From Methanococcoides sp. (lineage in GTDB: Archaea; Halobacteriota; Methanosarcinia; Methanosarcinales; Methanosarcinaceae), in the NCBI GenBank assembly GCA_021108275.1, contig JAIORD010000059.1, positions 1-64,000 of the forward strand: DNA of 64,000 nucleotides, given 5' to 3'. Below, piece after piece: positions 7,646-61,452 of the stretch. Each line of letters starts with the position of its first letter. The first letter of the stretch is position 1. A program made the position numbers and the translations under genes. Below the pieces are notes generated by a model. The model saw nothing but the letters and a program-made list of their open reading frames with translations. It had not been told where the DNA came from and searched no databases.

Positions 7646-7670
7646 TTCGAACAATTTAAAAACGAATTAC

Positions 7671-10830: not shown

Positions 10831-10849
10831 GGCTCTGTAGAAATCCTCA
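10831..10849 (-). repeat. Solitary IS terminal-repeat-like sequence
   Basis: GGCTCTGTAGAAATCCTCA lies just beyond the end of the transposase fragment, where an IS terminal repeat is expected. Close variants occur at 11229-11247 (GGTTCTGTAGAAATTCTCA), inverted at 44443-44456 (ATTTCTACAGAGCC) and at 61494-61511 (GGCTCTGTGAAAATCCTC). Confidence 0.55.
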
Positions 10850-11032
10850 TTTGAATAATAAAAATAATCTGGCAAACCTGTCAATGTTATGCACTAATAC
10901 CTTGAATTTAATTTCTTTTAGCTGATTCCAGTACTTTTTTGCTCTAATTTCCTCACCATATTTTCTTTTCAGAACAGAGAACATCATTTCTGCCAGATTT
11001 CTATTATGATACAGTTCTTCATCAAATTCCAT
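10847..11032 (-). pseudogene. C-terminal fragment of a DDE transposase
   Basis: Only 61 residues remain. The pattern YHNRNLAE followed by [21 protein letters not shown] and ending [13 protein letters not shown] is the typical C-terminal end of DDE transposases of the IS5-like type common in Methanosarcinaceae; the Glu of NLAE would be the last catalytic residue. The N-terminal catalytic Asp residues are gone. It reads toward the IS-end motif at 10831-10849, so this is the right-hand stub of a dead insertion sequence. Confidence 0.7.
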
Positions 11033-11247: not shown

Positions 11248-11361
11248 ATATTCGGACAATAATCCAATTTAAAAATATTGGGAGATGATAACTCCTTTTA
11301 ATTAGTGCTAACTGTGTTAACTTTTTGTTTAATTTATTTATTTCTTAGGAGGGAGATATCT

Positions 11362-14637: not shown

Positions 14638-14658
14638 GTTGAATCCGGATGGTTTTCC

Positions 14659-16248
14659 ATGGCTAATCCTACAAACAACACACAGTCGAGTTCTCGTGGT
14701 ACTGCAACCACGAGTACGACTCCGGATTCACGATTAAATGCGCGTCCTCATACAGTATTTCGTTACCGAGGTATGAAAAGAGAGTCAGTACAGCGACTTG
14801 ACAGCTATGCAGCTTCCCTGCGGCAAGGGATGCAAGCCAGCGTAAGAACAATGTCCAATAGTCAACTTTTAGACGAGGCCAAGCTGCTGAACACTCGTCT
14901 TTTTGAATCAAAAGAAGAAATTGGTCCGCAGGAAAAAGAAGCGATTGCGGAAACCTTGATATTAATGCGACAGGAGCTTGCGTACCGTATTCAAAAGGCT
15001 GCAGAACACCAAAAAACGACTCAACCGGTCCTTGAGCATATCAAATGGGAGGGCAAAGGCGGGCATGTCAATGATATCTACCCATTTTTCATGGTTGATT
15101 ATTGGTCGACCTTTGTAAAAACAAAGTCGCTGTCCAAGTTCATCCTCCCGAAGTCTGCTGAAATCGCCAAATGGACGAATACAAAACTAATAGAAGAAGC
15201 AGAAGGACTCAATAATATTTTCCAGAAGTATCTAACGGCGAAAGAAAAAACGAAAAAGAATATAAGCCCGATTGCGGACACATTAATCGTCATGCACAAT
15301 GATATGGATCGGCGGATTGGGGAGGCAACGAGAAAGCAAATGAAGTTCCCCCCCATTCTCAGAGGAGTTACCTGGATTAGCGAGAATCTTGTAGGAATTG
15401 CAGAGGGAGTTTCCCCGTTTTCAATGATCGATATCTGGAGCTTGTACAAAAGTCCGAAGCAACGACCGAAACGTCTTGTGAAACGATATTCTTTTGGAGA
15501 TGAGGTAATAGAGGGGGATTTCCCTCAAAAACCAAAGAAATGTATAGTCCCTACAAGAATTACAGAGAAGAAGGCGGCAGATAGAGCGCGAAAAGCAATT
15601 GATATTGCCGCTCGCTTGGCGAACTTCAAGGGGGAATTGTGGTATTACTGCATACTGCATCGGATGGGAAAACGCAATGCTGATATGTGGTGGATGGACC
15701 AAAATGCGTTTATTGCAGCAGGCATTTTTGAAAAAGATTTGTTGGTAAACTTTAAGTTAAGGATTGAAAAAGATGCAGCAGTTAAGACTACTAAGATAGG
15801 GAATTATACACTTTCAACTAAGCAGATAACAAAACTGAACAAAATTGATAAAGATTGGGCACGAAAAATTGTATACCCTGAAGAATTCGGGATGACTAAG
15901 CATAGAGCTGATTTGGAGTGTATAAAGCTTGCAAAAGTGTTAGCTAAACCTGAACTGGACAAGTATTGGGTCCAGCATTTGAAAAATAGAAATGCCAGTA
16001 GAGAATTACTGAAAATAATAAGAGACTCATGGTGCGATGACAGGATTATCTTGACTAAATTAAGTGAACTTCGCAAGAAAACAGATGATGCATTTTCACA
16101 GATGAAGACAATTGAAAATAGTGTGCCTAATTGTGATACTTCATCTACGGCGCCCTATCTTACCAGGAAAATTTGTAGTAGATGGAAAAAAGCGGTAGAT
16201 GACAATAATTCCTTTCTCAACTGTAAAAAAAAATATGGGAATAAATGA
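14659..16248 (+). CDS. Unknown protein with an internal duplication (second gene of accessory unit)
   Basis: This 529-residue protein is not recognised. After a Ser/Thr-rich N-terminal tail of about 30 residues come two copies of a helical unit: residues about 65-150 and 170-265 each contain a leucine-rich helix (DEAKLLNTRLFESKEEIG versus EEAEGLNNIFQKYLTAKEK), a helix with LILMRQELAYRI or LIVMHNDMDRRI, and end in a Pro-Phe-Met-Trp signature (YPFFMVDYWSTF versus SPFSMIDIWSLY). The C-terminal half is basic and helical, with a Trp-rich GELWYYCILHRMGKRNADMWWMDQ segment. No signal peptide. Its gene starts 21 bp after the 1091-residue gene and is followed 10 bp later by the broken third gene, so the three formed one transcription unit. 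Confidence 0.8.
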   Translation: MANPTNNTQSSSRGTATTSTTPDSRLNARPHTVFRYRGMKRESVQRLDSYAASLRQGMQASVRTMSNSQLLDEAKLLNTRLFESKEEIGPQEKEAIAETLILMRQELAYRIQKAAEHQKTTQPVLEHIKWEGKGGHVNDIYPFFMVDYWSTFVKTKSLSKFILPKSAEIAKWTNTKLIEEAEGLNNIFQKYLTAKEKTKKNISPIADTLIVMHNDMDRRIGEATRKQMKFPPILRGVTWISENLVGIAEGVSPFSMIDIWSLYKSPKQRPKRLVKRYSFGDEVIEGDFPQKPKKCIVPTRITEKKAADRARKAIDIAARLANFKGELWYYCILHRMGKRNADMWWMDQNAFIAAGIFEKDLLVNFKLRIEKDAAVKTTKIGNYTLSTKQITKLNKIDKDWARKIVYPEEFGMTKHRADLECIKLAKVLAKPELDKYWVQHLKNRNASRELLKIIRDSWCDDRIILTKLSELRKKTDDAFSQMKTIENSVPNCDTSSTAPYLTRKICSRWKKAVDDNNSFLNCKKKYGNK

Positions 16249-40439: not shown

Positions 40440-40690
40440 GCACCTTCTGGATTGTTGTGATTTTTGTGGCTATTTTCTTTGTGGCTTTTCTCGTTTGGCT
40501 TATTATTGATTGGCTTTTTTTGTTGTGGCTTATTTTTGTTTGGCTTTTTTGTTGTGGCTTATTATTGTTTGGCTTATTGGTGTGGCTTATTATTGTTTGG
40601 CTTTTTGTCGCTCGGCCTCTGGTGGGCCTCTTGCTTTTTGTATTGCCTTATTTTTGTGCCTTTTTTTGTATTGCCTTTTGGTTTTGTTAT
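40440..40690. repeat. T/G-rich imperfect tandem repeat
   Basis: About 250 bp built from variants of GTGGCTTATTNTTGTTTGGCTT with a period of about 26-30 bp. The plus strand is almost free of A-rich codons, so all three plus frames stay open by chance and spell hydrophobic repeats. The strand asymmetry is extreme. It lies between the small minus-strand gene and a truncated gene and is probably not coding. Confidence 0.65.
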
Positions 40691-44105: not shown

Positions 44106-44718
44106 TCCCCTTTTGTCCCATAATCTAATAGAGACAGTTTATAGACTCGTTTGTAGCATTTTAACTCATGAGTCTTGATAGATGCAATTTACACAACTGA
44201 AACTTATCCTAAATATTACTTTGGACACATCCTATAAGAGTGATTTGTCAATTGATAGATAATATATAACCATAATAATATTAAAAATTCATTTCAAATC
44301 GAGTAGTATAGGCTTTATTTTGCGATTGGAAATACATGAGGAGGGGACTTCACCGCATATAAAGTATCGTATGATGTCGTTTATATGAGTTTAAACTGAA
44401 ATTAGCGAACTACTGTAGTTGTAAATTTAAGATAGTATTAAGATTTCTACAGAGCCAATATTTGATATTCTACTCATTTTCGAGTTTGTCTAGTAACTTT
44501 CAAATATATCCCTATAAGTTACATTAAAAGAGCCTCTGAATTTTATATAAGAACAGATACAATTCTAAAATTTTATATACTACTGTACAGTTACTAATTA
44601 GTGTTCAGTTCAGTTGAACATAACGCTCTTGATACCATTTATAGAAATAAAGTATGGAGTCTGATGAATATAATTTCAATCCCTATGCTATAAGTATATG
44701 AAAATGAAGGTGCTTTTT
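44106..44718. other. Intergenic region upstream of modA
   Basis: About 610 bp, AT-rich. It contains a solitary inverted IS-end motif (44443-44456) and two TATA-like sequences, TTTTATATAA (44541-44550) and TTTTATATAC (44571-44580), of which the second is the better candidate for modA. No gene is seen. Confidence 0.45.
44443..44456 (+). repeat. Solitary IS terminal-repeat-like sequence, inverted
   Basis: ATTTCTACAGAGCC is the reverse complement of the motif at 10831. There is no transposase nearby. Confidence 0.4.
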
Positions 44719-45531
44719 ATGAATAAAAGAAATCAAACGTTAATGGTTGCCATAGCAATCATTATTGTAATAGTTCTTTCGGCTTTCTCAATTAATTCGA
44801 ATGATGGCGAACAGAAACCTACCTCCATCACCATATCTGCATCAGCAGTGTTGACTGAAGTTTTCACAGATATGGAAGAAGAATTTGAGGCTGATAATCC
44901 TGATATAGATGTCATAATGAACTTTGCAAATGCTGGTTCTCTAAGGATGCAAATTGAAGGAGGGTCACCCATAGATGTGTATGCTCCAGCAGATAGAGTC
45001 CAAATGGATATTCTGGCTTCTGATGGATTCGTTTACAACGATTCCCGAAAAGACTTTGCAGGTAGCTACCTTGTGATAATAGTTCCAAAAGGCAATATTC
45101 TTAACCTAACAACAATGGAGGACCTTTCAAAGCCTGAAGTAAAAAGGATAGCGTCCACCGATACACAAATTTCAACAGTGGGTAAGTATGCAAAACAATC
45201 ACTGATTGGAAAAGGCTTATGGAATATCGTGCAAAATAAGATGATAGTTGGTGATACGGTAAAATCCGCAATGGTTCATGTAGAGAGAGGAGAAGTTGAT
45301 GCAGGATTTGTCTTTATGACAGATGTCAAGACTGCAAAACCAGATAGCATAGAAGTGATAACTTCTGTACCGATGAGTGAAACTATTTATTATCCCATAG
45401 CTGTAGTTACATCAACCCAACACCAGAATGAATCTCAGATGTTCGTAGATTTTGTCACGGGAGAAAAAGGTAGCTCAATATTGGAGCAGTACGGTTTCAC
45501 AATTCCAAAACATGATTTAGAAGGTACCTAA
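44719..45531 (+). CDS. modA: Molybdate/tungstate-binding protein ModA
   Basis: This 270-residue solute-binding protein captures molybdate or tungstate outside the membrane. It starts with a signal/anchor helix (LMVAIAIIIVIVLSAFSI) and continues in the typical ModA pattern: ITISASAVLTEVFTDMEEEFEADNPDIDV, NFANAGSLRMQIEGGSPIDVYAPAD, and VHVERGEVDAGFVFMTDV. ATG 44719 is preferred to 44698 because AAGGTG lies 5 nt upstream of it. No ModB permease or ModC ATPase follows, so it is an orphan here unless they are elsewhere in the genome. modD and a DUF364 gene follow after 430 bp, so a molybdenum theme is clear. Confidence 0.9.
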   Translation: MNKRNQTLMVAIAIIIVIVLSAFSINSNDGEQKPTSITISASAVLTEVFTDMEEEFEADNPDIDVIMNFANAGSLRMQIEGGSPIDVYAPADRVQMDILASDGFVYNDSRKDFAGSYLVIIVPKGNILNLTTMEDLSKPEVKRIASTDTQISTVGKYAKQSLIGKGLWNIVQNKMIVGDTVKSAMVHVERGEVDAGFVFMTDVKTAKPDSIEVITSVPMSETIYYPIAVVTSTQHQNESQMFVDFVTGEKGSSILEQYGFTIPKHDLEGT

Positions 45532-45963
45532 TAAGGACCTTCTTTGTGGTTAGCCAGATTTCCTGCAATACAACGTTTTTCACTAAATAACGATGAAGCT
45601 TCAAATATATTAATTTCCTTTAGGTTTATTCAAAATGGGCTATAGTTCTATTGTAGTGCTTTAATTATTCTCCCAACGTTCCTTGAACCAAAATTCAAAT
45701 CCTTTTCCTTTGCTTTTTTCTTCAAAAGCCTATCATCTTTGCCAAGATAGTTAGATCCCATAAATCCCGTCAAGTTTGAAATATCTCTATGCAAGCTTAA
45801 AATCAAAATTTACCATCTACTGTATAAACTTATGTGCATATAATGTTAATTTCAGGATAAATTAGCAACTTATTTCTAGACGTTATCGAATTAACATATT
45901 CATACTACAGAATTCGATATCGTGCAATATAGGATGCATTGATGCATAACAAAAGGTGACAAG
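45532..45963. other. Intergenic region between modA and modD with a gene remnant
   Basis: The place where modB and modC would be expected holds only 430 bp. On the minus strand 45648-45790 has a protein-like stretch (LTGFMGSNYLGKDDRLLKKKAKEKD) ending in TAG at 45648 but with no proper start, so it is a remnant of some other gene. Confidence 0.4.
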
Positions 45964-46755
45964 ATGATTGAACTATTCGAACATTATTTGCTGGAAGATT
46001 GCCCCTATGGGGATGAGACCACCGAACTTCTCCAAATCGAGGGGCAAGGATCTCTTAAGATAATGTCAAGAGATGCGGGTATTGCAGCCTGTGCAGACGA
46101 CCTTGCGGAGTTCTATGGGAAAAAGGGAATGAAAGTGACCTCATATTTGGACAACGGAGAGAGTTTTGAAGAAAATTCCACACTCTTCGAGGCAGAAGGT
46201 GACCTCAGGACGATCTTCAAATTATGGAGAATATCACAGACATTCCTTTCCATGACATGTGCTATTGCAACAAAGACAAAAATGATTTCCGATGCTGCAA
46301 AGGCCGTGAATCCTGATGTGATAATTGCCACTAGTAGGAAGACACATCCAGGCTTCCGCAAATATGAGCTTAAGGCCGTCAGGGTAGGAGATGGAGATCA
46401 CCACCGAAACTCCCTGAGTGATTCGGTCCTTATAACACAGAACCATTTCAATGTTGTCGGTTCTTTCGGAAAGCTCAATTCAATGAGGAAGATCGAGATT
46501 GAGCCAAGGACAAGGGAAGAGGTCTTCGAATATGCACCAATTGCAGACGTCCTGCTCCTTGATCACTACACTCCCGAGGAATTAAAGGAAGTGGCACCTG
46601 AGCTTCGCAAACTCAACCCAAAACTTGAGATCGCAGTTGGTGGCATCGAATTTAAGGACATACCAAAATATGCAGCAACTGTTGATATAGTCGTGACCAC
46701 TGCACCATATTATGCAAAACCTTTTGATCTCACAACGAAAATAAACAGGCTCTGA
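45964..46755 (+). CDS. modD: ModD, pyrophosphorylase-like molybdenum protein
   Basis: The 263-residue protein is homologous to quinolinate phosphoribosyltransferase (NadC) but belongs to the ModD branch found in molybdate-transport operons. It has the NadC-like layout: EHYLLEDCPYGDETTELL at the N-terminus, the active-site TSRKTHPGFRKYELKAVRVGDGDHHRNSLSD (near residue 118-148), and a C-terminal barrel with LLLDHYTPEEL and IAVGGIEF. The true NadC has Arg-Thr-Thr-Pro at the site where this has RKTHPG. AAGGTGA precedes the ATG by 4 nt. The biochemical role of ModD is not known. Confidence 0.9.
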   Translation: MIELFEHYLLEDCPYGDETTELLQIEGQGSLKIMSRDAGIAACADDLAEFYGKKGMKVTSYLDNGESFEENSTLFEAEGDLRTIFKLWRISQTFLSMTCAIATKTKMISDAAKAVNPDVIIATSRKTHPGFRKYELKAVRVGDGDHHRNSLSDSVLITQNHFNVVGSFGKLNSMRKIEIEPRTREEVFEYAPIADVLLLDHYTPEELKEVAPELRKLNPKLEIAVGGIEFKDIPKYAATVDIVVTTAPYYAKPFDLTTKINRL

Positions 46756-46780
46756 TGAGAAACACACAGGCGGAAATAAA

Positions 46781-47569
46781 ATGGAAGATAATTCGTTAAT
46801 GGCAATGTTGCTTGAGCAGATCAGGCAGGAACTCGAAGGAAAACTGGATGGCATCTATGTGGAAGATGTAAGGGTGGGTGTTGTCTATAGCGGAGTGAAG
46901 ATAACAGGCGGCTACGGAGGAATCGCAGCCACTCAACCTCAATCAGGCTCATCTCACTGTACAACACTGCCGAAGGCAGGAGATATGTCCAGCAGTTCTG
47001 CATCAGAGGTCATGGAAATGGCACTCTCTGACAACACGCTCAAAGCTGTTGTTGGAGTGGCGGTCGTAAATGCACTGGCAACTATGATATGCGACCTTCA
47101 TCCTGAAAAGTATGCATTATCCGATGTTGATGTGCTTGACCTGATAAAGCCAGGAGACAAAATTGGAATGGTAGGCCATTTCAGCCCAATGATAGCACGG
47201 ATACTGAAGATAACAGACCAGCTTACAGTGATTGAAAAGAAGGATATCATTGATGAACGTATAGCTGTCGTTCCAGAGAATAATGCTTCCGAAGTACTTT
47301 CAGGGTCAGATGTTATCATAATCACTGCCAGTACACTTGTAAATGGAACAACTGATGAGCTTATATCCATGAAGAAAAATGCACGTGAAGTAGTCCTTCT
47401 CGGCCCTTCCACAGTGATGTTGCCACAGCCGTTCTATGATAAAGGATTCACTGCGGTGATGGGAACACGAATAAACGATACTGACACTATGTTAAAGGTC
47501 GTTAGTGAAGCAGGCGGCACTAATCAATTACTCAAAAAATGTGGTGAGAATATCTCATTTGTTAAATGA
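46781..47569 (+). CDS. DUF364 protein, putative metal-handling Rossmann protein
   Basis: This 262-residue protein has the DUF4213 N-terminal cap (about residues 8-95, with VRVGVVYSGVKI and SGSSHCTTLPKAGDM) and the DUF364 Rossmann-like domain (PGDKIGMVGHFSPMI, SDVIIITASTLVNGT, REVVLLGPSTVMLPQPFYDKGF). DUF364 proteins accompany nitrogenase and heavy-metal genes and may bind molybdate, FeMo-cofactor precursors or similar ligands. It begins 26 bp after modD, so the two are cotranscribed. In this context a role in molybdenum delivery or storage is reasonable inference. Confidence 0.87.
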   Translation: MEDNSLMAMLLEQIRQELEGKLDGIYVEDVRVGVVYSGVKITGGYGGIAATQPQSGSSHCTTLPKAGDMSSSSASEVMEMALSDNTLKAVVGVAVVNALATMICDLHPEKYALSDVDVLDLIKPGDKIGMVGHFSPMIARILKITDQLTVIEKKDIIDERIAVVPENNASEVLSGSDVIIITASTLVNGTTDELISMKKNAREVVLLGPSTVMLPQPFYDKGFTAVMGTRINDTDTMLKVVSEAGGTNQLLKKCGENISFVK

Positions 47570-48348: not shown

Positions 48349-48962
48349 TTATTTTCATTTTTATCATAGTGTACTCTAAGTTCAAATCTTACCCCCAAAC
48401 AGTAAGTTGGGGATATAGTAATCTCTGATTTTTTGTACGCCATTATTTTGGATTGATTGGATTCAAGAATAAGAGATCATCAAATTAACTTTACTCTTTA
48501 AAAGCGTAACTCCTTTTCAAGACTACTGGTACCACTCAGAGCATAGTTCATGCATTACATTTATGTGGTAGAAAACATTCCAATCCATAAAATATACTTA
48601 CACAGTTTCGGATGGAATCTATATCAGTGACAATTTTGCTGTTATAGTGTGCTGTAACTTCATTTTTCTGATTTGATCTGATGTATATTGCCTTAAAATA
48701 CCCAATGGTAATTTCCTAATAAAGCTACTTGTATATGCCTTATGGATTATATTCATTATCAAAAAGTAGTATACATCATATCATATGAGGTAACTTTATA
48801 TACAACAGCAGTTATGTTATGGAAATCAACTAAACTTGTCTTATCCAATAAAAATCGTATTTAATTTAATATGGTGTATAAATTATCAATTTGGGTGGTA
48901 TATATTTTGTTAATTAGAGACATTTTAAACAAATCTTAAATCCTTATAAGAGGTGCTTGTGA

Positions 48963-49452
48963 ATGAACATGGTACTTCTAAGCGTTGTGGGGATACTGTT
49001 TGCCATTCTTCTATTTGGTATTAAGACCGGGATTGGCTGTGGTTTTTCTAATCGCAGCACGAAAGAGATCCTTGCTATTGCAGGCAGCTATTTCATTTTA
49101 TCAATAATAATCGGCAGTCTGATAGGGTATGTGGACCAGTCGAACCTTGATGTTATTGCGATCATGGGTATGTCTCTCCACGTCCTGGTTGCGTTGTTAC
49201 TGATTGGGGCAGGATCTATACCCAGAAACAATGGAATTGCGGGTGTGATGTTTTCCATCGGACATAACCATTGTAAAGAATCCAGGCCAGGAGAACATGA
49301 AAATCATTGTCAAGGAAGGACAGGATATTGAAGTCCTGAACATGACCGAGCAGATCGGTGGTGGTACCGGTGAAGCACTGGGTACGGCCTACCAGCTGGC
49401 AGATGGTCGTGTTGTTTACGTTCCTGAAACCGGGAACGAGACTGGCAACTGA
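48963..49452 (+). pseudogene. Deletion fusion of DUF2162 (HmuT-like) and DUF2149 (HmuV-like) genes
   Basis: The first about 92 codons (to near 49240) encode the N-terminal half of a DUF2162 membrane protein: three hydrophobic segments starting VLLSVVGILFAILLFGIKTGIGCGFS. Around 49250 the reading shifts to +1, where SDITIVKNPGQENMKIIVKEGQ continues to GTAYQLADGRVVYVPE and a stop at 49452; this is the C-terminal part of DUF2149. A deletion has removed the rest of DUF2162, the expected ExbB-like gene between them and the first part of DUF2149. In frame 1 the piece 49297-49452 (51 codons with AGGAG upstream) could still be translated. The families are those that accompany CobN-type HmuS in bacterial haem uptake, and the CobN gene follows immediately. 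Confidence 0.65.
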
Positions 49453-49591
49453 CCTTTTCAAGAGTGTGTGGTAATGACAAATAGAAATTTTGAATGAAAT
49501 GAAAATGTGTGGTTAATAAAAGTTTGAGACATCCCGGAGCCAGCCTCCAAGCAATGTTCCGGGACGTCTTGCACATTATTAGGTGGATAAC

Positions 49592-52500
49592 ATGCAAAAT
49601 GTAAAACATAAATTATTGATTTTAAGTGTATTGCTTATGCTGGCACTCATACCAGTGGTATCGGCAGAAGAAGATGAATATGCAAATATGGAACTTTTTG
49701 GCAGTACGATCAGTGAGAGTAGTACTGCAGAATATAGTTTTTCTAATTTGCCTGATGGCTTCTATAAGATAAGATCCGCATGGGAATCCGAATCTCCAAT
49801 GGGGGGTATCTATTACTTCATTGGAGAACGGACCGTAATTGTCCAGGATGGAAATGCTGTTAGTGGTGCGGATGTAATTGCAGAATCCGTTACCCAAACC
49901 GAGATGGATCAGCTAAAGGACAGGATCGAGAATGGCACCTGTGCAGCATATATTGGTCAGGCAACAGTTTCAGGAACAGCAATGTTCGAGATGATGCCTG
50001 GAACAAACGTTGCACAAAAGAATGCAACCATGGGAATCTTTAGGATACCTGTGGAAGAAACATTGATGGCAACTGTGACCAGCGATAGTGACACTGCTGA
50101 ATATGGCTTTTCTGATTTGCCTGATGGCTTCTACAAGATAAAATCCGTTTGGGAATCCGAATCTCCAATGGGGGGTATCTATTACTTCATCGGAGAAAAG
50201 ACCGTAATTATCCAAAATGGAAATGCTGTTAGTGGTGCGGATGTAATTGCGGAATCCATTACCAAAACTGAGATGGATTTGCTAAAGGATAGGATCGAGA
50301 ATGGTACAATTTCATCTTACAGCGGTCAATCATCAATCTCAGGAACTGCTATGTTCGAGATGATGCCTGGAACAAACGTTGCACAAAAGAATGCTACAAT
50401 GGGAATCTTTAGGATACCTGTGGAAGAAACATTGATGGCAACTGTGACCAGCGATAGTGACACTGCTGAATATGGCTTTTCTGATTTGCCTGATGGCTTC
50501 TACAAGATAAAATCCGTTTGGGAATCCGAATCTCCAATGGGGGGTATCTATTACTTCATCGGAGAAAAGACCGTAATTATCCAAAATGGAAATGCTGTTA
50601 GTGGTGCGGATGTAATTGCGGAATCCATTACCAAAACTGAGATGGATTTGCTAAAGGATAGGATCGAGAATGGTACAATTTCATCTTACAGCGGTCAATC
50701 ATCAATCTCAGGAACTGCTATGTTCGAGATGATGCCTGGAACAAACGTTGCACAAAAGAATGCTACAATGGGAATCTTTAGGATACCTGTGGAAGAAACA
50801 TTGATGGCAACTGTGACCAGCGATAGTGACACTGCTGAATATGGCTTTTCTGATTTGCCTGATGGTTTGTACAAGATAAAATCTGCCTGGGAATCCGAAT
50901 CCCCAATGGGAGGCATCTATTACTTCATTGGAGAAAAGACAGTAATTATCCAAAATGGAAATGCTGTTAATGGTGTGGACGTAATTGCAGAATCCGTTAC
51001 CAAAACTGAGATGGATCTGCTAAAGGACAGGATCGAGAATGGTACCAGTTCATTTTACAGTGGTCAATCATCAATCTCAGGAACTGCGATGTTCGAGATG
51101 ATGCCTGGAACAAACGTTGCACAAAAGAATGCAACCATGGGAATATTCAGGATACCTGTGGATGAATCATTGATAGCAATCGGGACCAGCGATGGTGCTA
51201 CTGCAGCGTATGATTTTGGCAGCCTTCCAGATGGCCTTTACAAGGTCAGATCTGTCAAGGAATCCCAGTCCCCAATGGGAGGTACCTATTACTTCATCGG
51301 AGAAAGAACGGTGGTCGTGCAGGATGGAAATGCCATCACAGGCGCCGCTTTTATTTCAGAATCCACCAGCAAGACCAAGATGGATCTGCTAAAGGATATT
51401 ATCGAGAACGGAACCTCTGCCGCTTACAGTGGTCAGGGGACGGTTTCAGGAACAGTGATGTTCGAGATGATGCCCGGAACCAACATGCCACAGCAGAATG
51501 CAACCATGGGAATATTCCTTGAGGAATTGTTCGAAACTAAAACATCACCATCACCATCTATAGACGTGTCAGCAAGATTCTCTGCAAATGCAACTTCCGG
51601 TGATTCCCCTCTTACAGTTCAGTTCACAGATGAATCCGTAGATGCTTTATCATGGTTCTGGGACTTTGGAGATGGAACTAATTCAACCATACAGAACCCT
51701 GTCCACACTTATGGTAGTGTGGGAAATTATGATGTATCACTTACAATAACAGCTCCGGATGGCACAGGTACTGAGGTAAAGAAGGATTACATCACCACAC
51801 AACTTCCGGATATGTATAAAGACAAGAAGATCCTGTTCCTGATAATTGGCGCAGAAGAAACATGCTGGGTAAAAGAAGCAGCTATAGAAATGGGTCTGAA
51901 CAATGTCGATGTCTATGGTAGCTACCGCATGATTGAGGTTGATAACCTTTACAGTCCCTTCAATGATAGTATTGATACAGGTCTATATGACATCATATTC
52001 ATATCACGAAAAGGTGGAATGAGTTTCCTTGGATCAAATCTGAAGCCACAGATAGTTGAAATGATGGAAAATAAGAATCCTGAAGCACAGGTCGTTGACT
52101 GGAACTATGGAGTAGGGACAGTAAACCATACAGAACATCAATACATTGCTGACTATTGGGATGAGGAATATGATGGAAATGTCATTCGTCTGATCACATA
52201 TCTTTCAGTAGTGGACCTTTCAAGACCATTCAGTGAATATGATGGCACAATAGAGATCGAAGAACCAGCTATAATGCCGGATGTAGGGATCTATCACCCT
52301 GATGCCAGAATGGTCTTCGATGATCTGGAATCCTATTTAGAATGGTATGGAGAAGACACTGGAACCCACCATGTCTATAACCCGGATAATTACACAGTAG
52401 GCATTACTTTCTTCCCAGCCGGGGATGATAGTATATGTAACGAGGTTATAGAGAGCGTTATAACTGAACTTGAGTCCAGGGGAATTAACGCCATCCCGGC

Positions 52501-54253
52501 CTACAGGCCAGATGTCCTGTATACAGATAATGCCTACCGCTTCTTCACTGTCGATGGTGAATGGAAAACAGATGCTTTCATCGATCTTGGAAAAGGTGTA
52601 TGGATCATGTCCTCTCTTGTGAGTGACACAGAATACCTGGAGGAAGCAAATGTTCCGGTCATCAATGGAATCATCTATCAGGGTACCATTGAAGAATGGG
52701 AGAATTCCAGTACAGGTCAAGACTGCTGGTTCCAGTACCAGATCCCGATCATGGAGATCGGTGGTGAGATCGAGTCCATAGTAGTTGGAGGTCAGGAATA
52801 TGATGAAAACCTGGGTGCCAGAGTGCTCAAACCTATTGATTACCAGATAGACTGGATGATCGACAGGACTGTAAGCTGGATTGACTTACAGCATACCGAT
52901 AATGAGGACAAGAAAGTTGCGGTCATATACTATGCCCATGGAAAGCAGTCGGCACTGGTAGCAAGCAACCTTGATGTGGTCCCAAGTATTCCGAACTTCC
53001 TGAACGCCATGAACCAGAGCGGTTACGACCTTGGTGGATCACAGCTAAACGATTCCGAATTCCTGGAAACTGTGCTTCAGCAGGGAAGGAACATTGGGGT
53101 ATGGGCTCCCGGCGAACTTGAATACATGGTCGAGAACTATGATGTCGAGCTATTGCCTGTGGAAACCTACATGGAATGGTTCAACGACGAGATTGAAACC
53201 GAGGCAAGGCAAAGCGTACTTGATGCATGGGGAGAAGCACCAGGAAATGCAATGGTCTATGAGAACGAGAGTGGAAAGTACTTTGTCTTCCCGAAGATCG
53301 AAGCCGGAAACGTCCTTGTTCTTCCTCAGCCTGCAAGAGGATTCTCACAGAATGATACTACACTTTATCATGACCAGACAATACCACCTTCACATCACTA
53401 CATTGCATTCTATCTCTGGCTGGAGAATGGGTTCGATGCCGATTCCATTGTACACTTCGGACGCCATGGAACACAGGAATGGCTGCAGGGCAAGGGTACA
53501 AGCCTTTCTGTAAAAACCTGCTGGCCTGCAATCCTTATACAGGATACACCTGTAGTGTATCTCTACGATGTTGGAGGTATTGGGGAAGGAATAACAGCAA
53601 AGAGGAGAGGCAATGCTGTAATGGTTGACCATTCAACACCTGCCATCGTTAGTGCAGGCCTGTACGGCAATCTCACACTCCTGCATGACAAGATGCACTA
53701 CTACGAGACAGAAGAAGACCCAGTCATGGTAGAGAAATACAGGATTTCAATTATAGAGACATACGATGAGCTGAATTTCGAACAGGAATTCAATGTTTCT
53801 GCAGATGACCTGAGGAATATGAATGATACAGAGTTTGACAATTTTGTGCTGACAGGTCCGGTACACGACTATCTGCATGAACTTGCAAGCGAATACATAC
53901 CATATGGATTGCATGTCCTCGGAGAACAAATGAATCAGGAAGGGCAAATAGCTATGGTGAAATCAATGCTTGGCCTGGAGTTTGAGGAGCATGTCAAAGC
54001 GATATGCGATGATCCGCATGAAGTGGATACAGCACATTCACCGAATATTCTTGACAACCTGTTAGAAGATGTTCTTGTCAATGAATTGTCACCGACCGAT
54101 GCAGTTACAGGTCGGTTCAACACTTCAGGCATCACCACGAACGTCGTTTCGACGGTAATAAGTGATGAAAATGGAACATATGAGTTCACAGACATCAAAG
54201 ATGGGAATTACACGATATATGCAGCAAATTATATTGATTCGATGGACTTCTGA
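49592..54253 (+). CDS. Giant cell-surface CobN/HmuS-type chelatase, N-terminal part up to an in-frame TGA
   Basis: This frame of 1553 codons starts at ATG 49592 (AGGTGG 5 nt upstream; GTG 49583 is less likely). A signal peptide (LLILSVLLMLALIPVVSA) is followed by five copies of a 123-residue beta repeat (about 49720-51530) with LPDGFYKIKS, SPMGGIYYFIGE and GTAMFEMMPGTN; copies two and three are identical in DNA. Then come a PKD domain (about 51585-51800, WDFGDGTN) and a CobN chelatase domain (from about 51815) with the active-site-like HFGRHGTQEWLQGKG (53451) and GIGEGITAKRRGNAVMVDHSTP. The chelatase is then interrupted by inserted carboxypeptidase-regulatory-like repeats, inside the first of which the TGA at 54251 falls. 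The C-terminal half of CobN continues in the same frame at 54254. Likely an outer-surface tetrapyrrole metal chelatase or dechelatase; by its domains related to HmuS. Confidence 0.85.
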   Translation: MQNVKHKLLILSVLLMLALIPVVSAEEDEYANMELFGSTISESSTAEYSFSNLPDGFYKIRSAWESESPMGGIYYFIGERTVIVQDGNAVSGADVIAESVTQTEMDQLKDRIENGTCAAYIGQATVSGTAMFEMMPGTNVAQKNATMGIFRIPVEETLMATVTSDSDTAEYGFSDLPDGFYKIKSVWESESPMGGIYYFIGEKTVIIQNGNAVSGADVIAESITKTEMDLLKDRIENGTISSYSGQSSISGTAMFEMMPGTNVAQKNATMGIFRIPVEETLMATVTSDSDTAEYGFSDLPDGFYKIKSVWESESPMGGIYYFIGEKTVIIQNGNAVSGADVIAESITKTEMDLLKDRIENGTISSYSGQSSISGTAMFEMMPGTNVAQKNATMGIFRIPVEETLMATVTSDSDTAEYGFSDLPDGLYKIKSAWESESPMGGIYYFIGEKTVIIQNGNAVNGVDVIAESVTKTEMDLLKDRIENGTSSFYSGQSSISGTAMFEMMPGTNVAQKNATMGIFRIPVDESLIAIGTSDGATAAYDFGSLPDGLYKVRSVKESQSPMGGTYYFIGERTVVVQDGNAITGAAFISESTSKTKMDLLKDIIENGTSAAYSGQGTVSGTVMFEMMPGTNMPQQNATMGIFLEELFETKTSPSPSIDVSARFSANATSGDSPLTVQFTDESVDALSWFWDFGDGTNSTIQNPVHTYGSVGNYDVSLTITAPDGTGTEVKKDYITTQLPDMYKDKKILFLIIGAEETCWVKEAAIEMGLNNVDVYGSYRMIEVDNLYSPFNDSIDTGLYDIIFISRKGGMSFLGSNLKPQIVEMMENKNPEAQVVDWNYGVGTVNHTEHQYIADYWDEEYDGNVIRLITYLSVVDLSRPFSEYDGTIEIEEPAIMPDVGIYHPDARMVFDDLESYLEWYGEDTGTHHVYNPDNYTVGITFFPAGDDSICNEVIESVITELESRGINAIPAYRPDVLYTDNAYRFFTVDGEWKTDAFIDLGKGVWIMSSLVSDTEYLEEANVPVINGIIYQGTIEEWENSSTGQDCWFQYQIPIMEIGGEIESIVVGGQEYDENLGARVLKPIDYQIDWMIDRTVSWIDLQHTDNEDKKVAVIYYAHGKQSALVASNLDVVPSIPNFLNAMNQSGYDLGGSQLNDSEFLETVLQQGRNIGVWAPGELEYMVENYDVELLPVETYMEWFNDEIETEARQSVLDAWGEAPGNAMVYENESGKYFVFPKIEAGNVLVLPQPARGFSQNDTTLYHDQTIPPSHHYIAFYLWLENGFDADSIVHFGRHGTQEWLQGKGTSLSVKTCWPAILIQDTPVVYLYDVGGIGEGITAKRRGNAVMVDHSTPAIVSAGLYGNLTLLHDKMHYYETEEDPVMVEKYRISIIETYDELNFEQEFNVSADDLRNMNDTEFDNFVLTGPVHDYLHELASEYIPYGLHVLGEQMNQEGQIAMVKSMLGLEFEEHVKAICDDPHEVDTAHSPNILDNLLEDVLVNELSPTDAVTGRFNTSGITTNVVSTVISDENGTYEFTDIKDGNYTIYAANYIDSMDF
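49720..51530 (+). repeat. Five tandem 369-bp coding repeats
   Basis: Units begin near 49720, 50089, 50458, 50827 and 51196, each 369 bp (123 codons), the last incomplete. Units two and three are identical over essentially the full length, units one and four are close, unit five is diverged. This implies recent duplication or gene conversion within the gene and in-frame length change. Confidence 0.85.
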
Positions 54254-56953
54254 ATGATTAATAAGGAAAGTCTTCACATAGAGAACGAACAGGATGTTTT
54301 TGACAAAGATATTTGCATTGTAGCCGACCACGAAGAGCTTGATAATGTCCTGGGGCTTTTGCATGATTCTAGGTTGATAGGTGATGCATCTGTCTCAGGA
54401 AAGACATTCTCAAACGGCCCAATGGGTCTCACAAATCTCTCAGGGTCAATTGTTGCAGTTAAACAGGGTACAGAGATCCTGGGGGTAGTTGAAAGTGATT
54501 CCGAAGGAACATACAGTTTCACAGAACTTAACGATGGGGAATACACGGTAGTTGCGATTAATTATGTCAGTGCAATGAGCTTCTGGACAATCGGAGAAGT
54601 TACACTTAACATTGGATCCGGGCAGAACATCGCAGATCAGAACATTGAGTTGAAGGTTGACAATAGCAATGAGGTTGATGCTCTTCTTTCAGAGCTACCA
54701 ATTGCATCCGTTTCAGGAAAGACATTTGCAAATGGTCCTATGGGCCTGACAAACCTATCCGATTCAATTGTTGTGCTCAAACAGGATTCGGAGATTCTAG
54801 AAGTAACAGAAAGCGATGCAGAGGGAACTTACAGGTTCTCGGATCTTAAAGATGGAGAATACACTGTAGTTGCAATTAACTACGTAAGTGCAATGAATTT
54901 CTGGATGATCGGAGAAACGACAGTCAATATTCAATCTGGACAGAACATGGAAGATATGGATCTTGAACTTACACGTGACAACAACAATGATGTGGATGAG
55001 GTACTATCCCTTATCGAGGGTGCGTCTGTCTCAGGTGAAATATACTCAAATGGTCCGATGGGTTATACTGACCAACCCGGAAGCATCGTTGTCGTCGTTC
55101 AAACCCAGGCAGACATAAATAAAGGGCAAGAGCAGGTTATAGATGATCTGGAACTTGCTATTCTCTATTCTGAGAACATCAGAGCCTGCAAGGATCTGGA
55201 GATCCAGAGCATGCTCAATGCTCTTGATGGAAGGTATATCCCACCAGCTCTCGGAGATGATCCGGTGAGAAGCCCGGATGTCATGCCTACCGGAAAGAAC
55301 TTCTTCGCATTTAATCCAAGTCTTGTTCCAACGGAGGAGGCATGGGATGCCGGACAGATCCTTGTGGATGCATTCCTGGAAGAATGGGTCACCCGGAACG
55401 GAGATTATCCAAGAAAAGTTGGATTTGTACTGTGGTCTGGTGAGTCAATGAGACACAAGGGTGTCATGGAATCCGAGATCCTTTATATGATGGGTGTTCG
55501 ACCTGTATGGGATTCTTCAGGCAATTTTATCGATGTGGGGATTATTCCGGAAGAAGAACTTGGCAGGCCCAGGATCGATTCTGTTGTCACCATGACCGGC
55601 ATCTACCGTGATAACTGGAAGTGGCAGGTTGAGCTTATGGATAGGGGTGCACGTCTGGCAGCCATAGAAAACAGTTCCTCATATGCAAATTATGTCAGTG
55701 AGAACTCCGATCTGATCTATGAGGCATTGATGGCCACAGGCAACTATTCAGAAGAAGAGGCGAGGCAGCTTTCAATGTGCAGGGTATTCGGTCCCGACGA
55801 AGGTAGCTGGGGAGCCGGTGGATTCAGAGAAGCTGTAAGTGCCAGTGGTACCTGGGAAGAAGAAAGCAAGCTTGCCAACCTCTACATAGACTCCATGAGC
55901 TATGCATATGGTGACGACATATGGGGCAATTGTGACGGGGATGTTTTCAGACAGGTACTTTCCGAAACAGATGCTGTAATGTTCAGTCGCAGTGGCAATG
56001 ACAACCGTGGAAGTGGTAGTGTGGTCTTTGATCATGTCTACGAGTTCTTCGGAGGATTTGGAATGGCTGTGAGGAACGTATCAGGAGATACTCCTGAGAT
56101 GTATATCGCAAATCTCAAGGATCCGAACGAGGCCTTCGTAGAGACAATGGGTGAGTTCCTTGCAAGGGACCTTCGTTCCAAGTACTTCAATCCAAAATGG
56201 ATCGAAGGTATGATGGAGCACGGTTACACCGGAGCAAGCGAGATGGACAGTGTTCTTAAAGACTTCTTCGGATTGGGTGTCACGCTGCCGGATGAGATCA
56301 CGGATGATATGTGGAACGAGTTCTATGATGTGTATGTTCTGGACAAGTACGACCTAGGCCTAGATGAATGGTTCCAGGAGGAGAACCCATGGGCTAGCCA
56401 GTCCATGGATGCCAGAATGCTGGAAGCCGTACGTAAGGGCTACTGGGATGCCTCAGATGAGGTCGTCCAGAACCTTGTAAAGGAATATGTTGAATCCGTT
56501 GTGCAGGATGGTGTTACATGCTGCCATCACACCTGTGGAAACCCAACACTTGATAGCTATGTCCAAGGCATAATGTCTGTACCTGGAGTTATCGATCAGG
56601 ATACTATGGATGAGTACAACCGGTTGATGAAAGAAGCAACACATAGGGTGCCATCAGCTTCCAGATCCACTTCTCACAGTAGCAGTGGGTCGAGTGCCTC
56701 TGCTTCTATAGTGGAATCCACAAACAACCAGACTTCTGTAAGTGATGCAGGTTACGGAACAACAACTGAACAGGCAACTAAACAAATCACACCCGATAAT
56801 TATGTTGAAGGATACGAAATGACAAAAGAATCCGTAAACAATGAGGAAAATGCGTCATCAACATCCTTCTCCAGTGCTGATATTTTAGGCAGTGTGTTGG
56901 TCATATTAGCAGTTGGTGCCATATCTATCGGTTTCAGGAGACGAAGGATCTAA
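54254..56953 (+). CDS. Surface CobN/HmuS-type chelatase, C-terminal part after the TGA
   Basis: This 899-codon frame directly follows the TGA in the same frame and has no signal peptide and no ribosome site, so it is the continuation of the same gene and not an independent one. It completes the broken repeat (MINKESLHIENEQ...), has two more full repeats and part of a third (VSGKTFSNGPMGLTNLS, FWTIGEVTLNIGSGQN), then resumes CobN: VIDDLELAILYSENIRACKDLEIQSMLNALDGRYIPP, DVMPTGKNFFAFNPSLVP, FVLWSGESMRHKGVMESEILYMMGVRPVWD and WKWQVELMDRGARLA. A Ser-rich linker (about residues 780-830) leads to a C-terminal membrane helix (ILGSVLVILAVGAISIGF) and RRRR, anchoring it outside the cell. CTCCHHTCGN (near 755) is a Cys/His cluster that could hold metal. 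Confidence 0.8.
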   Translation: MINKESLHIENEQDVFDKDICIVADHEELDNVLGLLHDSRLIGDASVSGKTFSNGPMGLTNLSGSIVAVKQGTEILGVVESDSEGTYSFTELNDGEYTVVAINYVSAMSFWTIGEVTLNIGSGQNIADQNIELKVDNSNEVDALLSELPIASVSGKTFANGPMGLTNLSDSIVVLKQDSEILEVTESDAEGTYRFSDLKDGEYTVVAINYVSAMNFWMIGETTVNIQSGQNMEDMDLELTRDNNNDVDEVLSLIEGASVSGEIYSNGPMGYTDQPGSIVVVVQTQADINKGQEQVIDDLELAILYSENIRACKDLEIQSMLNALDGRYIPPALGDDPVRSPDVMPTGKNFFAFNPSLVPTEEAWDAGQILVDAFLEEWVTRNGDYPRKVGFVLWSGESMRHKGVMESEILYMMGVRPVWDSSGNFIDVGIIPEEELGRPRIDSVVTMTGIYRDNWKWQVELMDRGARLAAIENSSSYANYVSENSDLIYEALMATGNYSEEEARQLSMCRVFGPDEGSWGAGGFREAVSASGTWEEESKLANLYIDSMSYAYGDDIWGNCDGDVFRQVLSETDAVMFSRSGNDNRGSGSVVFDHVYEFFGGFGMAVRNVSGDTPEMYIANLKDPNEAFVETMGEFLARDLRSKYFNPKWIEGMMEHGYTGASEMDSVLKDFFGLGVTLPDEITDDMWNEFYDVYVLDKYDLGLDEWFQEENPWASQSMDARMLEAVRKGYWDASDEVVQNLVKEYVESVVQDGVTCCHHTCGNPTLDSYVQGIMSVPGVIDQDTMDEYNRLMKEATHRVPSASRSTSHSSSGSSASASIVESTNNQTSVSDAGYGTTTEQATKQITPDNYVEGYEMTKESVNNEENASSTSFSSADILGSVLVILAVGAISIGFRRRRI

Positions 56954-57837: not shown

Positions 57838-60800
57838 ATGAAGATTAAAAAACTTATATTCAATCTAGTAATTATTTCTTTAATACTATTCTCAACTGGG
57901 ATAGGGTATGCAACAAACACAGATATCCAAAATAATTCTGCTGATGCGTACTTTAAGGCAGAGTCAACATCTGTTTTTGAAAGCATAGCCCAGATAGAAG
58001 ACTCTAAATCCAGTATGACAGATGCCCAACAAAAATTGAGCACTGATCTCCTTAAACTGATAAACGAGAACGATCCTGATGAAGAACTAATAATTACTGA
58101 ACTGCAGATGGATACTCCTGCTCAGTTCAGTACTACAAACTTTATTTCCAAAAACCTTGATAACCAAATTCCCGATGATCTGGTCTATGCCTACATCTAC
58201 TTCGATCCATCATCAAAAATTGAAAATATCGAACCTTATGTATGGAGCATAACAGACAGAGATGCCAAGAACAAAATCGCTGTCGCATGGGTAGAGGTCA
58301 GCAACCTGGAAAAGCTGGCAGGCATTGAAGATGTTAGGAATATAAGAACAGTCCTGCCACCAGAAGTGAGGAAAGGTTCGGTTACCACGGAAGGGGATGC
58401 AATCCACAGGACCGATCTGGTCAGGACAAATTATTCATACAACGGGACAGGGATGAAGATAGGAGTGATATCTGATGGAGTCAATAATTTAACAAGCGCC
58501 CAAAGCTCAGGAGACTTGCCTCTAAATGTGACAGTAATAAATGACAATATGAGTGGCGACGAGGGTACCGCAATGCTCGAGATCATCCATGACATGGCAC
58601 CAGGTGCTGAGCTTTATTTCCACGATCACGGTAGCAATACACTTGCCTTCAACTCTGGCATTGATGCCCTTGTGGATGCAGGATGCGATGTTATAGTCGA
58701 TGATATCTCTTGGTTATTGGAGCCCTTTTTCGAAGACGGCGTGGTTGCATCACATGTAGCTGAAGTAATCGCTAACAACGATGTTATTTATGTATCCTCT
58801 GCAGGGAATAGAGGCTATGCACACTACCAGGGAAACTATTCCGGTGATGGAACTGATTTTCATAACAAATCATATCATCTGGAAATACTCCCAGATAAAG
58901 AAGCATGGATCTTTCTGCAATGGGATGATCAATTTGGCTCATCCAACAATGACTATGACCTTTACCTTTTAAATAGGGACAATGGAGAAATATTGGATAA
59001 CAGCACTAACTCACAAGAAGGATATCACGATCCTAGCGAATATATAATGTATTCAAATCCCTTGAACTCCACAATAAATGCAACCATTAAAATAAAGAAC
59101 TACAATAATTCAGAACCCAGAACACTGGAACTCTACATATACAAAATAGGAGTTGACCAGTTGGATAGCACCAACCTTACAACTGCCGACTCCATATTTG
59201 GACACCCTGCAGTTCCAAATGTTATTGCAGTGGGAGCTATTGATGCAAATGATCCTGGAAATGATGACATAGAATACTTCTCATCTCAGGGTCCAGTGAC
59301 AATTTCATATCCAACACAGGTCTTGCGGCCCAAACCTGATATAGTCGGAATCGATGGCGTGAATATAACAGGAGCAGGTGGCTTCGACAAACCATTCTAC
59401 GGAACCAGCGCATCAGCACCCCATGTCGCAGCCATTGCAGCCCAGATCTGGTCTGCCACGCCTGACAAGACAGCACCCGAGATACGTGAGATACTGTACT
59501 CCTCTGCGTTCGATCTTGGGGATACAGGATTTGATAATGTATATGGTCACGGTCGAGCCGACGCGTTGAATGCGTACAACGAAACAACAAATCCACCTTT
59601 GTTCTCGAATGAGTTTCCACTCACTGGCTCTTACACTAACAACAATAACACCAATGTAGTTGTCAATATAACTGATGGGGGAAGTGGTCTAAACCTAAAT
59701 GCTTTCAACATGATGATCAATGGTTCATCCGTGGTATTTTCAAATACAACGATCGACAACGGATACAGAATAGAGAATATAACCTCCCAGCCATACCCCG
59801 ATGGCATAATAAATGTATCAGTAACTGCGGAAAACAATTTCAGTGTTAGTGCCACCTACTTATGGTTCTTTATCGTAGACGCAACAAAACCCACATCAAC
59901 AAAACCGGATGATATCGAGTTTTCAGCAAACAGCACTGCAAACTTCGCATACTGGAAACTCTTCGACCTTCATCCGGAATACTACTGGGTACTGCTCAAT
60001 GGAACTGAGATAATTTCGCCACAGCAGTGGACAAATGACACCAACCTCAGCATTCCGATAGATACAAGCATCGGATTGGGAGATTTCAATTATACCATAC
60101 AATACAATGATACAGCAGGCAACTATGGAGATCCTGACACAGTCATGATCAATATAAATGACACATCATCACCTTATGCATTTGGAAATGTCCCTGCAAA
60201 TGGTTCGTATATCAATAACCCACAGCCTTCGATCTACATAAATATCGCAGATAACGCATCCGGTGTGAACAAGAGCAGCATCTCAATGATAGTTAATGGT
60301 ACTGAAGTTGATTTCACGAACGTATCGATATCAAAGGGTTATAACATATCAAATGATACATCCATGGACTTTACCCACAACCAGATCATAGATGTCACTG
60401 TCAATGCTACTGACAACAACAGCAACTTCATGAGTCATAGCTGGTCATTTGCCATAGACCTAGAAGACCCGACAATTGATATTACCTCACACTTGGATGG
60501 AAGCTCAACAATATCTGAATCAGTGATAATTTCAGGGATTGCAAATGGCACGGGTTCTCCTGTATCTGTGACCGTAAATGGTGTGGAAACCGCTTTTGAA
60601 GGACAGGATAGCATATTCAACCAAACAACTCCCCTTTCCTTGGGCACCAACACAATTTATGCAAACATCACAGACTCAGCAGGGAACTTCAACACAACTT
60701 CCATAAACATCACGCGGACCTCTCCGACAACCTCAAAGAGCAGCGGTGGTGGCGGTGGTGGTGGAGGCACTACAGGTGAAGCATACGAGAACATACAGAA

Positions 60801-61452
60801 GAAAGAGGTAATAAGCCAGTTCGTGATCAAAGGTGATGAGATCTCTTACGAATTTGTGGAGAGGGAGAACGATATAGGTAAGATTAGTTTCAATGCCCTC
60901 AAGAATTCAGGAAAGATATCCGTCACGGTTGAAGTTCTAAAGGACAGGTCCTCAAAAGTGGATAAGGACCCTGAAGGAAAAGTATACGGACACATGAACA
61001 TCTGGGTCGGCAAGACAGGGTTTGCGACCGAGCAGAACATAGCCGACCAGGTGATAGGTTTCAGGGTCAATAATTCATGGGTCAATGATAACAACATCAA
61101 TGAATCCACCATCATCCTCAACAGATACCATGATGGTGAATGGAACCGGCTCCCCACCACAAAGACAGGGGGGGATGGGGTATATCTCTACTTTGAGGCA
61201 AAGACACCTGGCTTCTCACCATTTGTGATAACTGGAGATGAGAATGAAGCTCCAATGGTCAAAGAAGAGTCTGCAAAACTGATATCTTCAACAATTAAAG
61301 ATGGGAATTCAATCGGAGATACGGAGGGCTCAAGTGTAAATAAAATAGGGGTCCCCACATTATTATTAAAGATTGCAGTTGTGGGCGGATTGTTGGTCCT
61401 TCTGATTGGATACTTCAAAAGGAAATACCTTTTCAGAAAATTGAAAAAATAA
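57838..61452 (+). CDS. Large surface S8-type serine protease-like protein with adhesion domains
   Basis: The 1204-residue protein starts with a signal peptide (LIFNLVIISLILFSTGIGYA), then a prodomain-like part (to about 195) and a subtilase domain (about 200-580): Asp in KIGVISDGV, the oxyanion Asn in YVSSAGNRG, and Ser in FYGTSASAPHVAAIAAQIW. At the usual His motif (GHGTH) the sequence is GDEGTAMLEIIHDMAPGA, so Glu stands where His is normal. A long bacterial-like inserted domain with NYSGDGTDFHN lies between. Three Ig-like modules (about 590-960) carry many NxT/S sites, then come a Gly9 linker, a PGF-pre-PGF domain (AYENIQKKEVISQF to TPGFSPFVITG) and a C-terminal membrane helix with a basic tail. 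It is anchored outside the cell and may process surface proteins, or bind without cutting. Confidence 0.85.
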   Translation: MKIKKLIFNLVIISLILFSTGIGYATNTDIQNNSADAYFKAESTSVFESIAQIEDSKSSMTDAQQKLSTDLLKLINENDPDEELIITELQMDTPAQFSTTNFISKNLDNQIPDDLVYAYIYFDPSSKIENIEPYVWSITDRDAKNKIAVAWVEVSNLEKLAGIEDVRNIRTVLPPEVRKGSVTTEGDAIHRTDLVRTNYSYNGTGMKIGVISDGVNNLTSAQSSGDLPLNVTVINDNMSGDEGTAMLEIIHDMAPGAELYFHDHGSNTLAFNSGIDALVDAGCDVIVDDISWLLEPFFEDGVVASHVAEVIANNDVIYVSSAGNRGYAHYQGNYSGDGTDFHNKSYHLEILPDKEAWIFLQWDDQFGSSNNDYDLYLLNRDNGEILDNSTNSQEGYHDPSEYIMYSNPLNSTINATIKIKNYNNSEPRTLELYIYKIGVDQLDSTNLTTADSIFGHPAVPNVIAVGAIDANDPGNDDIEYFSSQGPVTISYPTQVLRPKPDIVGIDGVNITGAGGFDKPFYGTSASAPHVAAIAAQIWSATPDKTAPEIREILYSSAFDLGDTGFDNVYGHGRADALNAYNETTNPPLFSNEFPLTGSYTNNNNTNVVVNITDGGSGLNLNAFNMMINGSSVVFSNTTIDNGYRIENITSQPYPDGIINVSVTAENNFSVSATYLWFFIVDATKPTSTKPDDIEFSANSTANFAYWKLFDLHPEYYWVLLNGTEIISPQQWTNDTNLSIPIDTSIGLGDFNYTIQYNDTAGNYGDPDTVMININDTSSPYAFGNVPANGSYINNPQPSIYINIADNASGVNKSSISMIVNGTEVDFTNVSISKGYNISNDTSMDFTHNQIIDVTVNATDNNSNFMSHSWSFAIDLEDPTIDITSHLDGSSTISESVIISGIANGTGSPVSVTVNGVETAFEGQDSIFNQTTPLSLGTNTIYANITDSAGNFNTTSINITRTSPTTSKSSGGGGGGGGTTGEAYENIQKKEVISQFVIKGDEISYEFVERENDIGKISFNALKNSGKISVTVEVLKDRSSKVDKDPEGKVYGHMNIWVGKTGFATEQNIADQVIGFRVNNSWVNDNNINESTIILNRYHDGEWNRLPTTKTGGDGVYLYFEAKTPGFSPFVITGDENEAPMVKEESAKLISSTIKDGNSIGDTEGSSVNKIGVPTLLLKIAVVGGLLVLLIGYFKRKYLFRKLKK

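Follow-up and report, generated by a model that had tools for sequence, protein, structure and literature searches.

Does the methanogen Methanococcoides sp. possess an archaeal counterpart of the haem system Hmu of Bacteroidota, with a tetrapyrrole chelatase displayed on the cell surface? This question is raised by a locus on contig JAIORD010000059.1 (GenBank assembly GCA_021108275.1), of which we analyzed a stretch of 64,000 nucleotides (positions 1 to 64,000), hereafter called the window. Here, a large CobN-like gene is preceded by pieces of DUF2162 and DUF2149, an arrangement that the original prediction had read as the remains of such a system. We refer to the four components as T (DUF2162), U (ExbB type), V (DUF2149) and S (the CobN/HmuS-like surface protein). 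The window locus is a decaying paralogue of an archaeal T-U-V-S operon. On balance, we lean toward the view that the intact system is a membrane complex in which a surface tetrapyrrole chelatase or dechelatase is proton driven.

Profile searches recovered both pieces in front of S, and one deletion has joined the start of a DUF2162 gene to the end of a DUF2149 gene (Table 1). A locus from another genome of the same genus, L019, is the intact orthologue and closest relative, and it served as reference for the window alignments. Using blastn, window positions 48880-49265 matched L019 384-770 and window positions 49261-49672 matched L019 1932-2343, which places the junction at L019 770/1932. The sequence lost comprises the remainder of T, the complete U gene and the first part of V, in which the membrane Asp is encoded; the open reading frame (ORF) of the T remnant continues out of the V frame as far as 49331. 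A signal-peptide-like start, surface repeats, a PKD domain and a putative C-terminal anchor, as expected for S, were all recovered by hydropathy, Tandem Repeats Finder (TRF) and Pfam. Alignment assigned the His codon at 53465-53467 in the HFGRHG motif to HmuS His538, and an Asp-His pair at 56030-56035 to HmuS Asp1208-His1209.

Table 1. Features of the window locus, and a ChlI/ChlD-like gene pair elsewhere in the source genome (G000).
Feature	Position	Strand	Evidence
T remnant, start of DUF2162 gene	48963..49265	+	PF09930, profile 2-80/223, E 4.5e-21
Deletion junction, ~1.16 kb lost	49261..49265	.	blastn against L019
V remnant, end of DUF2149 (HmuV-type) gene	49261..49452	+	PF09919, profile 36-92/92, E 8.6e-19
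S, surface CobN/HmuS-like gene, single frame of ~2450 codons broken by TGA	49592..56953	+	
Signal-peptide-like N-terminus of S	49592..49666	+	sequence; hydropathy
About five 369-bp tandem repeats in S	49724..51513	+	TRF score 2493
PKD domain of S	51572..51796	+	PF18911 (PKD_4), E 1.4e-16
CobN domain part 1 with HFGRHG motif	52151..53983	+	PF02514, E 2.7e-156, profile 2-602; alignments
Insert of SdrD/carboxypeptidase-regulatory-like repeats within CobN domain; contains the TGA	53984..55120	+	
In-frame TGA splitting S into two same-frame ORFs	54251..54253	+	aligned to TGG (Trp) in L019
CobN domain part 2	55121..56464	+	PF02514, E 8.7e-150, profile 676-1089 of 1090
C-terminal hydrophobic stretch and basic tail (putative anchor)	56876..56950	+	hydropathy
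ChlI-like and ChlD-like pair, source genome	C9:58396-60944		

Since the window copy is broken, it does not form a working system by itself. With U deleted and a TGA in S, one could regard the locus as a mere pseudogene without any meaning beyond decay. However, this holds for the window copy only, because the same genome carries an intact operon and a further paralogue, and L019 is intact. Protein identity to L019 is 93% for the first CobN part and 92% for the second, with ratios of nonsynonymous to synonymous substitution rates (dN/dS) of 0.096 and 0.081. The enzyme part was therefore under strong constraint until recently; the repeats and the insert are too divergent from L019 for a good alignment. 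Furthermore, a sequencing error could account for the single TGA, as the assembly is a draft of 60 contigs. We consider the explanation by decay alone highly improbable.

Intact relatives of the locus were found in the source genome itself. Six CobN-domain matches fall into four genes, namely two adjacent intact genes on contig C1, an intact gene of 2066 aa on C6 and the window gene. The order on C1 is DUF2162, ExbB (PF01618), DUF2149, S, S, followed by a gene with YHS and FrhB-like domains. A candidate for a third intact operon on C4 (137000-149000, L067) was rejected: its U-V pair lacks T, U is shortened to 181 aa, and of S only the last part remains, on the other strand, where 52 aa align with the end of the C1 S at 96% identity. 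L067 is a further decayed copy in an iron neighbourhood, with its U-V pair adjoining genes for an Fe-dependent repressor and FeoB. The YHS and FrhB-like (F420-type) reductase gene follows immediately 3' of S in eight of nine same-genus TUV-S loci (L007 at 6860-8029, L014, L016, L020, L021, L023, L024 and L028; Pfam assignment from L007), and not in L019. This reductase is a possible electron source for the system.

Within the order, we examined 62 stretches chosen by their T, V or S matches, which hence do not represent a random sample. They contain 43 complete TUV loci, and S lies on the same strand within <=1.6 kb in 34 of these and not in the other nine. Outside the order we took 20 V loci, one per genome from 55 matching genomes and mostly with high-scoring V. 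T, U and V stand together in 19 of the 20, and S lies no further than 2 kb away in 16, with the same orientation in 14 of them and on the opposite strand in two (L158 and L159). At the level of whole genomes, 119 genomes of the order revealed PF02514 in 73, PF09919 in 70 and PF09930 in 63, where the PF02514 counts also take in cytosolic CobN. In the window's family (f1) all three are present in the same 41 of 45 genomes. The four genomes without them (G061, G098, G106, G108) are drafts of 97-99% completeness from four genera that otherwise have all three, and this joint absence suggests repeated joint loss. As the original prediction supposed, intact relatives do carry DUF2162, ExbB and DUF2149 beside a surface CobN gene.

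We then compared the archaeal proteins with the best 80 of 175 HmuS loci from Bacteroidales. In these 80 loci, archaeal profiles found HmuU in 75 ORFs (median E 2.2e-50) and HmuV in 71 ORFs (median E 1.3e-38), and the order S-U-V was seen in 69. Nine of the other 11 loci end soon after S or within U, L142 has S-U-V plus an extra U, and in L094 U-V stands before S. Profile alignment with hhalign gave a probability of 100 both for archaeal U against HmuU (35% identity) and for archaeal V against HmuV (43% identity), so that the proposed HmuU and HmuV counterparts among the archaeal ExbB and DUF2149 proteins are supported. The same proposal had placed HmuT in DUF2162. A Pfam scan of two HmuT proteins (L075, L109) returned no DUF2162 match and no Pfam match at all, and this identity was dropped. 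The predicted HmuT structure (predicted local distance difference test score, pLDDT, 84) had no match in the PDB at E <=0.001.

For S, the kinship with HmuS is supported by several lines of evidence. The best PDB match of the C1 S was HmuS with 460 bits vs 433 for CobN. HmuS was likewise preferred by the first half of the window S (213 bits vs 171 for ChlH and 167 for CobN) and by its second half (317 bits vs 226 for CobN and 215 for ChlH). A tree of 33 rows places 21 archaeal surface S in one group (99/95) and five HmuS in another, and both together stand apart from seven cytosolic-type rows with 100/100. We chose to root the tree on these seven rows (five archaeal proteins, CobN 7c6o and ChlH 4zhj), and the branch leading to HmuS is long; a quick tree of 81 rows was consistent. 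Hydrophobic stretches at both termini, as judged by hydropathy only, indicate that S is not cytosolic, unlike CobN of CobNST. We conclude that an S-U-V core is present in archaea with a different T, and that it is widespread in the phylum.

Compared with HmuYRSTUV of Bacteroidota, where HmuS is a dechelatase (PDB 9d26), the archaeal system thus has in common the S fold, the outside location with anchors, matching U and V, and the grouping of S, U and V genes. On the contrary, DUF2162 takes the place of HmuT, the order is mostly T-U-V-S and not the bacterial S-T-U-V, and many archaeal S carry added surface repeats and PKD domains and occur as several paralogues. The idea of an archaeal Hmu counterpart therefore stands for S, U and V, and fails for T and for the window copy, which is broken. 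Archaea of this kind have no outer membrane, and HmuY and HmuR are for this reason not expected in them.

The active site was compared in 64 surface S rows of the order set using HmuS numbering, and in 15 S from a phylum sample. His538, Glu577, Asp1208 and His1209 are all kept in nine of the 64 rows, as in HmuS. We call this the Asp-His subtype; it comprises the window gene, the C6 gene of the same genome, L019, L022, L042, L043 and one S each of L048, L053 and L055. Two S of the phylum sample (L172, L173) also keep the four residues. In the 81-row tree the Asp-His subtype is one clade within the archaeal group and not sister to HmuS, hence the shared His is either ancestral or convergent. The expected likeness of the chelatase site to HmuS was thus seen in the catalytic residues of the window S; it does not extend to the haem-binding positions described below.

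How could such a surface enzyme be energized? A MotA_ExbB domain was identified in U. V has a single hydrophobic helix, and the Asp within it is conserved in at least 90% of 118 V sequences from archaea and bacteria. In both features the pair resembles ExbB-ExbD-TonB, TolQR and MotAB. It differs in that its host is without an outer membrane and its putative partner is a surface chelatase. Since there is no outer membrane to serve, yet U and V stay tied to S, the pair may energize S itself. The likeness of V to ExbD is based on sequence and on the accessible part of PMC10100974; the HmuV structure model is too weak to compare (pLDDT 59). In Bacteroides thetaiotaomicron, the accessible text of PMC12583661 and of PMC10100974 credits HmuUV with powering an outer-membrane receptor. 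A single-membrane host removes this usual explanation, and the role of TUV thereby becomes directly testable. According to the accessible text of PMC12583661, HmuS requires NADH and no ATP in vitro, and the isolated enzyme halts after one or two turnovers, so that a missing energizer is conceivable. An influence of HmuTUV on HmuS activity is allowed as a possibility in the available part of PMC13227078.

The cytosolic class I chelatases, CobNST cobaltochelatase and ChlHID Mg-chelatase, share the CobN domain with S. They are ATP driven by AAA+ partners, whereas surface S has a candidate proton-channel pair and lies outside their side of the tree. We searched for AAA+ partners with TIGR02442 as ChlI/ChlD marker (cut-off E 1e-20); PF01078 was rejected for this purpose because it matched every one of the 45 genomes and 14 controls. 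No ChlI/ChlD match was found in ten f1 genomes that have long-frame S and V (G004, G009, G014, G041, G045, G080, G084, G086, G090 and G102). A short-frame CobN (1226-1301 aa), taken as cytosolic, was located 0.5-6.4 kb from ChlID in G057, G073 and G112.

In the model that we favor, S would act outside the cytoplasm as a class I (CobN/HmuS fold) tetrapyrrole chelatase or dechelatase, with its C-terminus as anchor and the surface repeats holding it off the membrane. U and V would form a proton-driven stator, which would draw on the proton (or sodium) gradient to move domains of S or to release its product, and would replace the AAA+ ATPase of cytosolic CobN/ChlH. T, a hydrophobic "predicted transporter" with conserved Cys, would be a metal- or electron-transfer partner. 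T of normal length conserves the Cys at GCG, at CPVC and a later Cys in at least 90% of 41 rows, which include rows from loci without S; this pattern does no more than hint at metal or thiol transfer. Scavenged tetrapyrroles could then lose their metal outside the cell, and the metal could enter through an importer such as FeoB. In the widest reading, class I chelatases would have two interchangeable engines, ATP-driven AAA+ rings inside and a proton-driven ExbB/DUF2149 stator outside, and archaea without an outer membrane would show that HmuUV-type pairs drive the chelatase and not a TonB-dependent receptor. We put this wider claim forward tentatively and give it somewhat less than an even chance.

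Several observations weigh against the proton-driven chelatase. DUF2162 and HmuT reached an hhalign probability of only 1.6. HmuS His254, the ligand of the second haem site, is present in none of the aligned archaeal surface rows. Phe502 is not conserved in archaeal S, and Met79 was found in few surface rows, within the Asp-His subtype only in L042 and L043, in a head domain where the alignment is weak. Most surface rows (51/64) have Asp-Asp as in CobN 7c6o, and one has Asp-Gly. A ChlI/ChlD pair without short CobN exists in ten genomes (the source genome, G019, G024, G029, G053, G096, G033, G037, G049 and G065), so that an AAA+ partner of S is possible there. A btuS1 btuS2 double mutant of B. 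fragilis still produced protoporphyrin, as the accessible part of PMC6460266 reports, and our search of partly accessible literature found no biochemistry for any archaeal member.

Two further observations of this kind bear on a different explanation, in which T-U-V energizes large surface proteins in general, and S, rather than being a chelatase, binds a tetrapyrrole as receptor or carrier and passes it to an importer. First, TUV or UV also adjoins other surface genes. Beta-helix/NosD-type neighbours of TUV were seen in L070 (Pfam) and in L063 and L064 (gene cluster); in these three loci T has a TPR- or SNAP-like extension and changed Cys, and U-V has genes for beta-helix or other surface proteins in its vicinity. 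In three S-less TUV loci, the long T has the first Cys motif and part of the second altered. An S-layer protein gene stands beside U-V in L068 (Pfam) and L069 (gene cluster), with no S within either stretch. TUV thus seems to serve other surface proteins as well. Second, the catalytic His is lost in three of the 64 surface rows and in four of the 15 phylum-sample S (L160, L162, L163, L168), which are TUV-linked, and the same chemistry is therefore impossible for these S. On the other hand, the catalytic His is retained in 61 of the 64 order-set rows, and PF02514 and PF09919 are missing jointly in four genera. We regard a general energizer with a non-enzymatic S as quite unlikely and retain the proton-driven chelatase as working model.

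Which tetrapyrrole would be the substrate? An Fe-dependent repressor gene adjoins V in L043, as in L067, and lies 7 kb from S in L029, which has a FeoB gene as well. Haem or another iron porphyrin is the likeliest candidate substrate of the Asp-His subtype, including the window gene, and corrinoids are possible substrates of the Asp-Asp subtypes. A further explanation is a corrinoid machine, in which S would take cobalt out of scavenged corrinoids or put it in, to serve the corrinoid-rich methylotrophic and acetyl-CoA pathways, while CbiZ would process the salvaged ring inside the cell. The prevailing Asp-Asp pair would fit this, as would the CbiZ gene, which is indeed present in the window (585-1202, minus strand; PF01955, E 1.7e-58). 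Between two S genes of L036, a gene at 10375-10929 encodes a B12-binding-domain protein with a hydrophobic N-terminus, which may be an exported corrinoid binder. DUF1638 was found near S in L036 and, by gene cluster, in L030, and FecCD and Peripla_BP_2 genes near TUV in L042 and, by gene cluster, in L043 and L066. In L008, L015, L018, L022, L025 and L032, putative acetyl-CoA decarbonylase/synthase (cdh) genes, named from their sequence, lie near S. We rejected the cdh neighbourhood as proof of corrinoid use, since it represents one position in two genera, on the opposite strand. Against cobalt chemistry stand also the better PDB match of S to HmuS than to CobN and the iron genes near TUV or UV in L029, L043 and L067. 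We judge a dedicated corrinoid machine unlikely, yet more probable than the other rivals of the proton-driven chelatase.

Previous work has touched on archaeal members of this group. In the accessible text of PMC12583661 the role of archaeal HmuS homologues is described as unclear, and complete hmu operons are said to be lacking in these species; Table 3 of PMC10100974, available in part, lists Methanomicrobia among the clusters matched by HmuS and HmuV. BtuS has been proposed as a third type of CobN-like protein (accessible part of PMC6460266), a broad protein group that includes archaeal S. Two BtuS were named in M. barkeri and change with the iron/sulfur source, while the entire operon is said to be lacking (accessible part of PMC10846266), whereas we found T-U-V-S groups in the same order. 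Neither an archaeal T-U-V-S operon nor a drive of S by UV was reported in the partly accessible literature that we searched, and a search on the name DUF2162 returned no publication. A functional surface chelatase would mean that methanogens and their relatives recover metals or tetrapyrroles on the outer side of their own membrane. If HmuUV-type pairs indeed drive the chelatase, the accepted scheme for gut Bacteroidota changes as well.

The surroundings of the window locus contain further genes. Upstream (44698-47569) we found genes for a solute-binding protein, a QPRTase-like protein and a DUF364/DUF4213 protein ("putative heavy-metal chelation"). Downstream, a large surface subtilase-like gene (Peptidase_S8 by Pfam) occupies 57838-61452. 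Subtilase-like surface genes also occur near the S loci L029, L044, L045, L046 and L047 (by gene cluster, with Pfam Peptidase_S8 for L045). Two neighbouring large ORFs of 1110 and 529 aa at 11305-16248 had no Pfam match at E 0.001, and short tandem repeats of the TGGCTTATTATTGTT type are located at 40460-40679.

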